A stretch of 51,058 bases of DNA, from positions 1 through 51,058 of the forward strand of contig CASDPA010000014.1 of the NCBI GenBank assembly GCA_949282255.1. The letters are read 5' to 3'. Each line of letters starts with the position of its first letter. Position 1 is the first letter of the stretch. Source of the stretch: an uncultured Spirochaetales bacterium. Its GTDB lineage: Bacteria > Spirochaetota > Spirochaetia > Sphaerochaetales > Sphaerochaetaceae. The notes below the pieces were generated by a model, which did not search any database, was not told where the DNA came from, and was given only the letters and a program-made list of their open reading frames with translations. Shown one piece after another: positions 5,887 to 49,217 of this stretch. A program made the position numbers and the translations under genes.

Positions 5887-7224
5887 TTAATGAACATGCC
5901 CTTTTTTAGAAGGGAAAAACAAGAAAAACGCAGCAGCAAGATCTGCCAGGGCCCATCCGATGGGTATGCTCATCCAGATTCCAATCTCCCCCAAGAAGGA
6001 AAGCCTTGAAAGCTGATAAGCAAGAACCACCCTGGTTCCAAGGCTGATTATTGTCAAAATCAGGGAGATATGAGGTTTTCCCGAGGCCCTGAAGTAACCA
6101 TAAAAAAGAAACAGATACCCGATGAGGATATAAAACGATCCCTCGATCAGAAGATAGCGGCATCCGATATAGATTATCCTTATAGATGGGGAAGAAACGA
6201 ACAGCCCCATCAGGAATCTGGACATGGCTACGGTAAAAATGGAGAGAACTGCGCCAAAAGCCGTAACCGCAATAAAAGAAATCCTTATCCCTTTTTTCAC
6301 CCTGTCCGGTTTTCCGGCTCCCCTGTTCTGACTTATGAATACAGAAAGGCCGTTTCCATAATCCTGCATCGGAAGATATGCAATCCCGTCGATCTTCACA
6401 GCAGCCGAAAATGCGGCCATCACATCGGACCCAAAGCTGTTCACAAGCCCCTGTACCATGAGGATGCCGAAATTCATAACCGATTGCTGTGCGGCAGTAA
6501 ATAATGAAAGCCCCATCAGTTCTTTCAGAACATCCTTTTCAAAGGACACGTTTTTTAACCTGATCTTCAAAACAGGATAACTGCGGGAGCATAATAGCAA
6601 CGCCACAGCAGAAAAATATTGGCTTATGACTGTAGCCCAGGCCGCGCCTGAAACCCCAAGGGAAAGACGGAGAATGAAAAAAAGGTCCAAGCCGATATTG
6701 AGAAGGCAGGATAAGGCCATGAAAAAAAGAGGTGAGACAGAGTTTCCAATGCTTCTCAAAGCCGAAGCATGGTAATTGTAGAGAAAAACCGCAGGAAGAC
6801 CTAAAAAAATGATGCCAAGATAATCCTTCATCGCAGGTTGTACATTCAATGGAACATTCAAGGAGGCCAAAATCCAATCCAAAAGAAGAAAGACAATGAC
6901 CATTATCAGTATGGTTATCGTCATGATGAGGAAAAAAGAGGTTGCAAGGCATTTTTCCAGACGCCGCAAATGTCCTGCTCCGTAATTATAAGAAAAAGAT
7001 GCCGCCGATCCCAGAGAAAGACCGATCATGATGCTTGTCAAAAACGTCATGAGACTGTAGGAGGAGCCGACAGCGGCCAAGGCCTCAGCACCGATGAAAT
7101 TTCCGACAATCATGCTATCGGCAAGATTATAAAAGGTCTGCAGAAGATTGGCCAACATCAAGGGAAGAGAAAAAAGCAAAAGGGATTTGGTTATTCCAGA
7201 GCTTGTCAGATCAACGTTTTTCAT
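5887..7224 (-). CDS. MATE family multidrug/Na+ antiporter
   Basis: 445-residue inner-membrane MATE transporter with 12 predicted helices in two similar halves; the family exports cationic drugs or metabolites against H+ or Na+. The N-terminus LFSLPLMLANLLQTFYNLADSM and the mid-protein QSVMNFGILMVQGLVNSFG region are typical of the DinF/NorM-like branch. Start choice is uncertain: ATG at 7224 gives the usual family N-terminus, but ATG at 7263 and TTG at 7293 are also open, and none has a Shine-Dalgarno site. It is transcribed away from a second MATE gene starting at 7311, so the two share a short promoter region and may form a heteromeric or duplicated pair. Confidence 0.85.
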   Translation of the reverse strand: MKNVDLTSSGITKSLLLFSLPLMLANLLQTFYNLADSMIVGNFIGAEALAAVGSSYSLMTFLTSIMIGLSLGSAASFSYNYGAGHLRRLEKCLATSFFLIMTITILIMVIVFLLLDWILASLNVPLNVQPAMKDYLGIIFLGLPAVFLYNYHASALRSIGNSVSPLFFMALSCLLNIGLDLFFILRLSLGVSGAAWATVISQYFSAVALLLCSRSYPVLKIRLKNVSFEKDVLKELMGLSLFTAAQQSVMNFGILMVQGLVNSFGSDVMAAFSAAVKIDGIAYLPMQDYGNGLSVFISQNRGAGKPDRVKKGIRISFIAVTAFGAVLSIFTVAMSRFLMGLFVSSPSIRIIYIGCRYLLIEGSFYILIGYLFLFYGYFRASGKPHISLILTIISLGTRVVLAYQLSRLSFLGEIGIWMSIPIGWALADLAAAFFLFFPSKKGHVH

Positions 7225-45849: not shown

Positions 45850-45884
45850 GATAGCCTCAGACTTTTATGATTTCAACTTATTTT

Positions 45885-45939
45885 GAAAAAATAAACCGGA
45901 TGGAAGTCCTTCGTTTCCGTAAAGAACTTATCCATCCGG
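45885..45939 (-). terminator. Rho-independent terminator of the orphan RNA
   Basis: Minus strand CCGGATGG (45932-45939) pairs with CCATCCGG (45896-45903), with inner helix TCTTT/AAGGA around an ACG-GAAA-CG cap, then TTTATTTTTT (45886-45895). It faces away from thiI; there is no T run on the plus strand. Confidence 0.75.
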
Positions 45940-46091
45940 ATGTTCCCGACTTACAGGTCAGGATGTTCTTGCACCCTTTTCATGGAACCTCTCATCATTC
46001 CTCTCTTTACCATTTTTCAGGTCGCACATCCGTTGATCCCGGAAACCTTTTCTTGGAGGGTGTGCTTTTTGTCCCATTACCTTTCAGGTAC
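45886..46091 (-). ncRNA. probable orphan structured RNA, about 206 nt
   Basis: The 464 bases between thiI and the activase gene (45850-46313) have no convincing protein gene. The minus strand has a near-perfect promoter at 46098-46125 and a terminator at 45885-45939. Between them are stable hairpins: TACC/GGTA (46078-46090), GCACACCC/GGATGTGC (about 46024-46065), GTTC/GAAC and CCTGAC/GTCGGG. The motif ACCTGAAA with a GGTAA partner occurs twice and ACCTGTAAG once. No minus-strand gene follows, so it is not a cis-acting leader. It lacks the marks of tmRNA, RNase P RNA or SRP RNA; 6S RNA fits by size but the ends do not pair. Confidence 0.6.
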
Positions 46092-46097
46092 ACTTTC

Positions 46098-46125
46098 ATA
46101 TTACCTCAAGAAGGTGGTTTGTCAA
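46098..46125 (-). promoter_or_regulatory. promoter of the orphan RNA
   Basis: Minus strand TTGACA (46120-46125), 16 bases, TAATAT (46098-46103). The best -35 match in the window; predicted start near 46091. Confidence 0.65.
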
Positions 46126-46278
46126 GAAAAAACAGCACATAAAGGAAATGCAGACCGGACAAAAAAAGGGGGCCTTCCTCTGAAAAAAAGTTCGATGCAA
46201 TACATAAATTCTTTTGACAAAACCTGTTATTTGTAAAAAAAATCCTACCCTTTTTCCACGAAAATCCGTTCATTCGAC

Positions 46279-46307
46279 TTTTCAAAAATTTTAATAAACA
46301 TTATTTT
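46279..46307 (+). promoter_or_regulatory. promoter giving a leaderless activase mRNA
   Basis: TTTTCA (46279-46284), 17 bases, TATTTT (46302-46307), then six bases and the ATG at 46314. No Shine-Dalgarno site is present, so transcription should start on the A of the start codon. Confidence 0.45.
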
Positions 46308-46313
46308 TTAACT

Positions 46314-49217
46314 ATGCTGAAAATCGGAATCGACGTAGGAAGCACCACCATGAAGGTGGTGGCGCTCGATGACGGGAACAATGTCGTCTACGGCGCCTAC
46401 GAAAGACATTATTCGGAAATTTTTTATAGAGCCGGCAAAATGCTTGCCGACCTGCGCGACAAACTGGGAGATCAGGAGATAACCTATTCCATCTCCGGTT
46501 CAGCGGGCATGGGCCTCAGCGAAGAGGCTGGAATCCCGTTCGTACAGGAAGTTTACGCCACAAGGGTCGCAGCCATGACATACATGCCGGATACCGATGC
46601 CATAATAGAACTCGGAGGGGAGGATGCCAAAATCCTCTTTTTAAAAAACGGTCTTGAGGTGAGGATGAACGGAACCTGTGCCGGAGGCACCGGAGCATTC
46701 ATCGACCAGATGGCAACACTGCTCGGCATATCCAGAGACGATATAGACGCACTGGCTTCGAAAGCCACGGAGATATACACCATCGCCTCACGTTGCGGGG
46801 TGTTCGCAAAATCTGATGTGCAGCCGCTCATAAACCAGGGGGCAAGAACCGAGGACATTGCCGCTTCGATACTCGTTGCCGTGGTGAACCAGACAATCGC
46901 GGGACTGGCACAAGGAAGGAAGATCGAGGGTAACATAGTTTATCTTGGTGGCCCGCTGACTTTCATCAGCAGTCTCAGAAAATACTTCGACGAGGCTCTC
47001 AAGACAAACGGCGTATGCCCGGAGAATTCGCTTTACTATGTTGCAATCGGTGCGGCCCTCACCCCAGGAGGGAAAAAGTCGACGATGACCGAACTCCTTG
47101 ATTTGGTTTCAAAACTCAAGGGGACCGGAAAATATACAAAGCTCCCTCCCCTTTTTAAGGACAGGGACGAATACGAGCAATTCAAGGCACGCCACGAAAA
47201 GGCAACGGTGAAATACATAGATGCTTCCAAATACGCAGGAGAAGCCTTTCTCGGCGTCGATTCTGGCAGCACCACGATAAAATGCTGCCTCATAGACAGG
47301 GATGCGAACCTGCTTCTGTCCAGATACAGTCCCAACAACGGAAATCCGGTGCAGGCGATAAGCTCCTTTTTAAGCTCCGTATATGAGGATTACCCGAACA
47401 TCATAATCCGTTCCAGCGCCGCAACCGGATACGGCGAAGAGCTTTTGAAGACTGCGGTCAACCTCGACTACGGACTTGTCGAAACGCAAGCACATTTTCT
47501 AGGAGCAAAGCACTTCATGGACGATGTGGATTTCATAATCGACATCGGCGGCCAGGATATAAAGTGCTTCAAAATCCGTGATGGCGCGATTGATGACATC
47601 TTCCTCAACGAAGCCTGCTCATCGGGATGCGGATCTTTTTTGCAGACGTTTGCAAACGCTCTCGGCAAATCCAGCCAGGAATTTGCAGACCTTGCAATAG
47701 ATGCAAAAGCTCCGGTGGACCTTGGATCCAGATGCACGGTTTTCATGAACTCCTCCGTCAAGCAGGCGCAAAAGGACGGAGCTGGGATAAACGACATCTC
47801 GGCGGGACTTGCGATATCGGTCGTAAAGAACGCGCTTTACAAGGTCATCAGGGCCACCAGCAAGGAACAGCTGGGAAAGAACATAGTCGTCCAAGGCGGC
47901 ACATTTTTGAACGATGCGGTACTTAGGGCGTTCGAGCTTGAACTGGGCATGGAGGTGATCAGGCCTCAGATAGCGGGACTCATGGGAGCCTTCGGAGCTG
48001 CTCTTTATGCGAAGCTGATGACAGAGCGAACCGGCAAACAGACCGGGATAATATGCAAGGAAGAGCTTGCCGAGCTACATCCCAACATCCGCAGCATCCG
48101 TTGCCAGGGGTGCGCAAACCATTGCATACTCACCATAAACGACTTTGGTCTCAACAGGAGGCTCATAAGCGGCAACAGGTGCGATAAGCCGATAACAGGC
48201 GTGAAAAGGGAGGAAAGCGACGAGGACAATCTATATCTTTTCAAACAGAACCTGATGAAGGGCTACATGGGGGAAAAGGGAGAGAACAAGCGTGGACGGC
48301 TGGGCCTTGCACTGGCACTCGGGATGTGGGAGCTTCTGCCGTTTTATCAGACGCTGTTCGAGAATCTCGGTTTCAGGACTGTCGTTTCCCCGTTCAGTAC
48401 GAGAAGCCTCTACATAAACGGACAGGCATCCATTCCTTCCGACACGGTATGCTTTCCGGCAAAGCTCATGCATGGACATATCGAATATCTGAAAAAACAA
48501 AAGGTGGACATGATATTCATCCCTGCAAGCAGCTATAACGTCAATGAGGAAAAAGGCACAAACCATTTCAACTGTCCCGTCGTGGCCTACTACGGGGAGG
48601 TGATCAGGGCAAATCAGGACCTGGAGGGGATTCCGCTCAAACTCGCCTACCTCTCGCTTGAAAGGAAGAATGTTCTCAAAAAGAGGATCATGGACACTTT
48701 CGGAACAAAATCGGGAGAAACCGCACGGGCGGTGGACAAGGCGTTTGCCGCATTGGAGGAATACCACAGGAAGGTCATCGAAAAAGGTGCCCGGGTCATA
48801 GAGAAGGCAAGAAAAGAAAACAGGCACATAATCGTGCTTGCCGGAAGACCTTATCATGTCGATCCTGAAATCAACCATGGAATCGATCATCTGATTGTCA
48901 CCCTTGAGGCTTCGGTTGTCAGCGAGGACAGCCTGAGCTATATGATCGACAGGGGAAAGGTGGATGTCCTGAACCAGTGGACCTACCACGCCAGGATGTA
49001 TGATGCGGCCAGATATGTCCTTGACAAGCCGGACATGGACCTCGTGCAGCTCGTTTCCTTCGGCTGCGGGCTCGATGCAGTCACGACTGACGAGGTCAGG
49101 GAGATCCTGAGAAGCGGCGACAGGATCTACACCCAGATAAAGATCGACGAGATCACAAACCTCGGGGCCGTAAAAATCAGGCTCAGGAGCCTTTTCGCCG
49201 CCATGGAGCTTAAGTGA
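46314..49217 (+). CDS. 2-hydroxyacyl-CoA dehydratase activase-related protein (two ASKHA domains + DUF2229)
   Basis: 967-residue protein. Two ASKHA ATPase units of the BcrAD/BadFG class: the first with GIDVGSTTMK (4-13), GGEDAKI and NGTCAGGTGAFIDQMA; the second with GVDSGSTTIK (about 314-323), GGQDIKCF and NEACSSGCGSFLQTFA, which has the cluster-binding Cys. Then a DUF2229 region with RCQGCANHC and RPYHVDPEINHG. Activases use ATP to inject an electron into the [4Fe-4S] dehydratase. In many anaerobes this and the next gene are one chain of about 1400 residues whose true substrate is unknown; here they are two genes with a one-base TGATG overlap. Confidence 0.85.
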   Translation: MLKIGIDVGSTTMKVVALDDGNNVVYGAYERHYSEIFYRAGKMLADLRDKLGDQEITYSISGSAGMGLSEEAGIPFVQEVYATRVAAMTYMPDTDAIIELGGEDAKILFLKNGLEVRMNGTCAGGTGAFIDQMATLLGISRDDIDALASKATEIYTIASRCGVFAKSDVQPLINQGARTEDIAASILVAVVNQTIAGLAQGRKIEGNIVYLGGPLTFISSLRKYFDEALKTNGVCPENSLYYVAIGAALTPGGKKSTMTELLDLVSKLKGTGKYTKLPPLFKDRDEYEQFKARHEKATVKYIDASKYAGEAFLGVDSGSTTIKCCLIDRDANLLLSRYSPNNGNPVQAISSFLSSVYEDYPNIIIRSSAATGYGEELLKTAVNLDYGLVETQAHFLGAKHFMDDVDFIIDIGGQDIKCFKIRDGAIDDIFLNEACSSGCGSFLQTFANALGKSSQEFADLAIDAKAPVDLGSRCTVFMNSSVKQAQKDGAGINDISAGLAISVVKNALYKVIRATSKEQLGKNIVVQGGTFLNDAVLRAFELELGMEVIRPQIAGLMGAFGAALYAKLMTERTGKQTGIICKEELAELHPNIRSIRCQGCANHCILTINDFGLNRRLISGNRCDKPITGVKREESDEDNLYLFKQNLMKGYMGEKGENKRGRLGLALALGMWELLPFYQTLFENLGFRTVVSPFSTRSLYINGQASIPSDTVCFPAKLMHGHIEYLKKQKVDMIFIPASSYNVNEEKGTNHFNCPVVAYYGEVIRANQDLEGIPLKLAYLSLERKNVLKKRIMDTFGTKSGETARAVDKAFAALEEYHRKVIEKGARVIEKARKENRHIIVLAGRPYHVDPEINHGIDHLIVTLEASVVSEDSLSYMIDRGKVDVLNQWTYHARMYDAARYVLDKPDMDLVQLVSFGCGLDAVTTDEVREILRSGDRIYTQIKIDEITNLGAVKIRLRSLFAAMELK

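Follow-up and report, generated by a model that had tools for sequence, protein, structure and literature searches.

A probable stand-alone small RNA gene restricted to three close species of one Spirochaetia genus

The stand-alone intergenic small RNAs (sRNAs) of bacteria are ~200 nt in length and are encoded by orphan genes of restricted range that have a sigma-70-type promoter and an intrinsic terminator. CsrB/RsmZ-type sponge RNAs and multi-seed sRNAs, such as Listeria LhrC, carry a short motif that is repeated at stem/loop borders. 6S RNA (RF00013) is a structured stand-alone RNA, also of ~200 nt. Ms1 RNA of Actinobacteria is structurally related to 6S RNA and binds the core of RNA polymerase (RNAP) (PMC9130861).

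Here, we describe a locus in a window of 51,058 nucleotides (the whole stretch of DNA analyzed) from the 2.35-Mb genome of an uncultured spirochaete. Based on sequence comparisons, this locus is probably the gene for a stand-alone, trans-acting sRNA of a new lineage-restricted family found in three close species of one Spirochaetia genus. As a kind, it is familiar, i.e., an orphan intergenic sRNA at a small distance from known systems. The candidate shares the orphan gene, the length, the type of promoter, the intrinsic terminator, and the restricted range with the stand-alone intergenic sRNAs but differs from them in that it has no sequence or structure match in Rfam 15 and no detectable Hfq. 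It resembles 6S RNA as a stand-alone structured RNA of similar length, while its fold and sequence are different. Ms1 (PMC9130861), like the candidate, is a lineage-restricted structured RNA of a similar size class, and gene context was required to trace it across genera; unlike Ms1, the candidate does not resemble 6S RNA and coexists with a 6S gene.

Sequence signals, conservation, and predicted fold

The initial annotation had described a TTGACA-16-TAATAT promoter at 46098-46125, followed by ~206 bases that end in a hairpin with a T tail and contain a thrice-repeated ACCTG(A/T)AA motif. We recovered all these elements on the minus strand (Table 1), including a terminator hairpin with a 9-bp and an 8-bp stem in front of the tail UUUAUUUUUU and three copies of the motif, two as ACCUGAAA and one as ACCUGUAA. 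In the consensus fold, each copy begins in the 5′ strand of a stem and continues into a loop. A promoter scan of the 2-kb region returned 6 promoter-like sites versus 2.0 ± 1.6 expected (an excess of 2 to 3 standard deviations), and a tripled 8-mer with one wildcard arose in 7% of dinucleotide shuffles. Relative to shuffles, the full-length RNA of the window had a folding z of −3.0, which became ~−2.1 without the terminator, and much of its fold stability is due to this hairpin. By themselves, these single-sequence signals are only moderate.

Using BLAST, we identified the element in 2 of the 47 other congeneric genomes (G003 and G034; 87-88% DNA identity), and with a covariance model derived from all three sequences, the G003 and G034 elements scored 247-252 bits. 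By both types of search, the element is single copy. Because the same promoter hexamers, RNA body, and terminator recur in these two species inside diverged flanks, the element stands above chance.

The three RNAs are 88-90% identical in pairwise comparisons; the corresponding values are 48-59% for fourfold-degenerate sites in the adjacent activase gene and mostly 30-55% for the windows flanking the RNA. Conservation begins at the −35 box, dips in the spacer, returns at the −10 box, and ends at the U tract, and this profile fits an RNA gene that is transcribed in the minus-strand direction. Nearly the whole RNA is conserved, loops and internal loops included, rather than one short seed; a linker at ~45980-46004 varies freely among the three species. 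These comparisons show that the predicted RNA is under purifying selection. The preservation of TTGACA-16-TAA[TG]AT around a diverging spacer argues that the RNA has its own promoter, and the stem, the U tract, and two compensatory changes in the stem argue that it has its own intrinsic terminator.

A small protein gene (the 91-aa plus-strand ORF spanning 45867-46142 or a peptide encoded on the minus strand) might be suspected, as the three species share a largely open antisense frame and retain a sense ORF of 10 codons (MKRVQE[HQ]PDL). However, indels between species break the sense as well as the antisense frames, most codon changes within the longest antisense frame alter the encoded amino acid, and the upstream part and start region of the 91-aa ORF lie in unconserved sequence. 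Moreover, the conserved promoter and terminator both have minus-strand orientation, which argues against a protein gene as well as against an untranscribed conserved DNA element, and we consider both very unlikely.

The RNAalifold consensus of the three sequences predicts a 5′ domain in which two long-range helices surround smaller hairpins, followed by two separate hairpins (Table 1). Pairing probabilities are 0.95-0.99 for H1 and H2 in each of the three species, standard pairs make up 98.2% of pair cells in the alignment (3 of 165 are broken), and the folding z of the full-length RNAs ranges from −3.3 to −4.0. In the terminator hairpin H7, two pairs have double compensatory changes across the three species. 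For the three sequences, the covariation score was reached by 101 of 500 shuffles and, therefore, is not significant; for this reason, outside the terminator the fold should be taken as predicted rather than proven. Variable columns were enriched in unpaired positions, and this enrichment disappeared (p = 1.0) once one variable linker was omitted.

Table 1. Features of the candidate RNA locus (window coordinates) and 6S RNA loci of the genus (coordinates of the loci named)
Feature	Position	Strand	Basis and remarks
−35 hexamer TTGACA	46120-46125	−	Promoter scan; invariant in all three species despite diverged spacer
−10 hexamer TAATAT	46098-46103	−	16-nt spacer to −35; TAAGAT in G003 and G034
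Predicted sRNA, ~206 nt	45886-46092	−	Start placed from −10 box, end from U tract
U-rich tail UUUAUUUUUU	45886-45895	−	Sequence read; 3′ limit of RNA at 45886
ACCUGAAA copy 1	46082-46089	−	Stem/internal-loop border of H1; ACCUG kept in three species
ACCUGAAA copy 2	46015-46022	−	From 3-bp stem H5 into H5 loop; conserved in three species
ACCUGUAA copy 3	45951-45958	−	Runs into loop of hairpin H6; conserved in three species
Predicted 5′ domain (H1 and H2 around H3/H4 and H5)	45970-46092	−	RNAalifold
Predicted helix H1	46092-46086 with 45976-45970	−	RNAalifold
Predicted helix H2	46077-46071 with 45988-45982	−	RNAalifold
Predicted hairpin H3/H4	46065-46024	−	RNAalifold; enclosed by H1 and H2
Predicted hairpin H5, small and weak, 3 bp	Within 5′ domain	−	RNAalifold
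Predicted hairpin H6 (UCCUGAC-CUGUAA-GUCGGGA)	45944-45963	−	RNAalifold
Terminator hairpin H7, 9-bp and inner 8-bp stem	45896-45939	−	Perfect 9-bp stem 45896-45904/45931-45939
BadF/BcrA-type CoA-enzyme activase (BcrAD_BadFG, DUF2229)	46314-49217	+	Divergent from RNA
Genus 6S RNA, same genome as candidate	G000:C28 ~6510-6689 = L084:808-987	−	Gene order
Genus 6S RNA, other loci	L082:2368-2547, L083:808-987, L085:2292-2473, L086:2287-2467, L087:2439-2621		Gene order

Genomic context and distribution

The divergent activase gene is the only neighbor conserved with the RNA in the three species, and its start codon is ~222 bp from the RNA start in all three. The initial placement of the RNA between thiI and the activase gene holds for the window, where thiI is convergent on the 3′ side, but not as a conserved linkage, as thiI is absent from this place in G003 and G034 and the activase gene alone is kept. 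On the 3′ side, G003 instead has small peptide ORFs on the strand of the RNA, and G034 has an FGGY kinase gene, with the next gene on the same strand as the RNA. In agreement with the initial claim that no protein gene follows on the strand of the RNA, the window has no minus-strand gene within 2.4 kb downstream.

Riboswitches usually consist of a structured RNA with a terminator behind it, and the next gene is on the same strand in G034 and G003, as would fit a cis-acting leader, either a riboswitch or an attenuator, that controls a downstream gene through its hairpin terminator. Because each of the three genomes has a different neighbor on the 3′ side, with the convergent thiI in the window and no gene common to the three contexts, such a leader is highly improbable; also arguing against it, sequence conservation ends at the U tract, and none of the Rfam riboswitches matched. 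The lack of a common downstream gene together with the dedicated terminator suggests that the RNA would act in trans.

Several other observations were made in this region. In G003, the two small ORFs close behind the RNA (L005:697-819 and L005:875-1006; minus strand) start with MK(K/E)YVKPE, have Shine-Dalgarno-like sites, and resemble peptide-precursor genes; neither has a match in Pfam. Upstream of the activase gene in the window, a TTTTCA-17-TATTTT sequence (46281-46313; plus strand) ends ~6 bases ahead of the ATG, the start lacks a Shine-Dalgarno sequence, and more distant congeners (L007-L011) retain a similar upstream sequence. Based on these features, the activase mRNA is possibly leaderless. 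Between the RNA promoter and the activase gene, a second conserved island, TTCTTTTGACAAAACCTGTTATTT (46198-46247; plus strand), is 76-96% identical in the three species amid diverged sequence. In most congeners in which thiI precedes the activase gene, a gap of ~1.0-1.3 kb between them reads as a permease-like gene; this arrangement, without the RNA, is seen in L015, L016, L018-L022, L024-L026, and L028-L030.

The thiI-activase junctions of other congeners contain no diverged copies of the RNA, and the covariance-model search did not detect the element in the remaining 45 congeneric genomes. Weak matches in 16 congeners were partial or open-ended alignments that we judged to be due to chance. 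Among 139 genomes of the family in all, only the same three were positive, the other members of the family having no element, and a class-wide covariance-model search of 395 sampled genomes gave no credible match. In the latter search, five weak matches (E of 1e-3 to 0.07 per genome) fit in number with chance across 395 genomes; of these, we checked those in L039 and L040, and both overlap with protein genes. No credible element was found in the plasmids and phages searched; we regard an exact match of 19 nt to one IMG/VR contig as chance, and a second pattern gave none.

In searches of Rfam 15, no family matched the candidate at the gathering threshold or, over a 476-base stretch, at E up to 10, where only chance matches appeared. 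This bears out the initial annotation, which had found no tmRNA, RNase P, SRP, or riboswitch cores: neither ARAGORN nor Rfam gave a tmRNA, RNase P, or SRP RNA match for the candidate, and the whole window yielded only a tRNA-Thr at 31-104. Among titles and abstracts on spirochaete 6S RNA and sRNAs, we found no sRNA literature for this uncultured lineage. The proposed check in relatives was borne out for conservation, which extends to G003 and G034, but not for covariation.

The 6S RNA of the genus

The initial annotation had left open whether the element is a new small RNA or a diverged 6S RNA. Of 198 Spirochaetia genomes, 63 have a 6S RNA detected by RF00013, and these include members of three other genera of the family; the 48 genomes of this genus gave no match. 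Because RF00013 is blank across the genus, a 6S identity of the candidate, which has about the right length, was worth testing.

In the three other genera, 6S lies directly upstream of a gene for a TPR protein, with the rplT/infC side on the other flank (gene names at the 6S loci were assigned by inspecting translated ORFs). In the same slot in this genus, in the order rplT, zapA-like gene, 6S, and TPR gene, we identified a ~180-nt 6S homologue (Table 1). It has paired ends, carries the conserved segments CTCTTGG-CAAA, GGAACAGAA, and CCCCCTTGAACC-GTTCAAGAG, and aligns with the 6S RNAs detected by Rfam in the three genera. The three species share 96-98% identity in this RNA, and identity to the next congeners is 81-84%. 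In the two of these loci that were checked, RF00013 gave no score even at E up to 1.

Based on the syntenic homologue in the rplT-zapA-like-TPR interval, the 6S slot of the genome that contains the candidate is filled. The candidate also lacks the long end-closed rod with a large central bubble: in its consensus fold, a 5′ multibranch domain is followed by two separate hairpins. In 33 of 300 shuffles, local similarity to the genus 6S RNA was at least as high as that of the candidate. RF00013 did not match the candidate at E up to 10, although the true 6S RNA of the genus also escapes this model. These results make it extremely unlikely that the candidate is a diverged 6S RNA; of the two initial options, comparison and the lack of an Rfam match favor a new small RNA.

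The 6S RNA also served as a yardstick, in that a vertically inherited candidate evolving at anything like the 6S rate would be recognizable in congeners. Because 6S remains 81-84% identical in the next congeners, in which the candidate is undetectable, the history of the candidate probably involved acquisition by the ancestor of the three species, loss in other lineages, or much faster evolution before the three diverged.

Possible modes of action and implications

In the proposed mechanism for the trans-acting sRNA, a sigma-70-type promoter would give rise to a ~206-nt non-coding RNA that stops at its own intrinsic terminator. The helices would serve as a scaffold for exposed loop segments with the three ACCUG(A/U)AA copies, and these would base-pair with mRNAs to regulate them. 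We regard this as the most likely mechanism, with the chances for and against it about evenly balanced. When 466 orthologous start regions, drawn from about half of two genomes, were searched for targets, the best score was beaten by 9 of 16 structure-preserving decoys. Hfq was not detected, as judged by the lack of PF17209 matches in the three genomes, although a diverged spirochaete Hfq could escape PF17209.

The position of ACCUG(A/U)AA at three stem/loop borders is reminiscent of CsrB/RsmZ and LhrC, and its copies could serve either as seeds or as protein sites. This position, the near full-length conservation including loops rather than a single short seed, the target search without signal above decoys, and the lack of an Hfq match are also what might be seen if the structured RNA acted by binding protein, as a sponge, RNP scaffold, or RNAP-binding RNA, instead of pairing with mRNAs. 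Arguing against protein binding, CsrA, the classic sponge client, was not detected (no PF02599 match in the three genomes), most GGA triplets of the RNA are paired, and a separate 6S RNA exists; this alternative is plausible but somewhat doubtful. In its details, the candidate differs from CsrB/RsmZ in that its motif is not of the CsrA-type ANGGA and from multi-seed sRNAs such as LhrC in the lack of a target signal above decoys. A more specific version, in which the RNA would represent a new, recently acquired class of RNP-forming structured RNA with a dedicated protein bound at the three ACCUG(A/U)AA stem/loop sites, appears unlikely. For the preferred reading of a stand-alone sRNA, the divergent pairing with the activase gene at a fixed distance leads us to speculate that its regulation may be shared with fermentative CoA-enzyme metabolism.

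These findings indicate that reading of raw sequence can find a selected RNA gene that is missed by every Rfam model. That RF00013 misses 6S RNA throughout this genus matters for annotation. For the genus itself, the candidate would be a clear-cut example of an RNA gene confined to one lineage: it is ~90% kept in three species with almost scrambled silent sites and is undetectable in close congeners, even though their 6S RNA is still ~82% identical.
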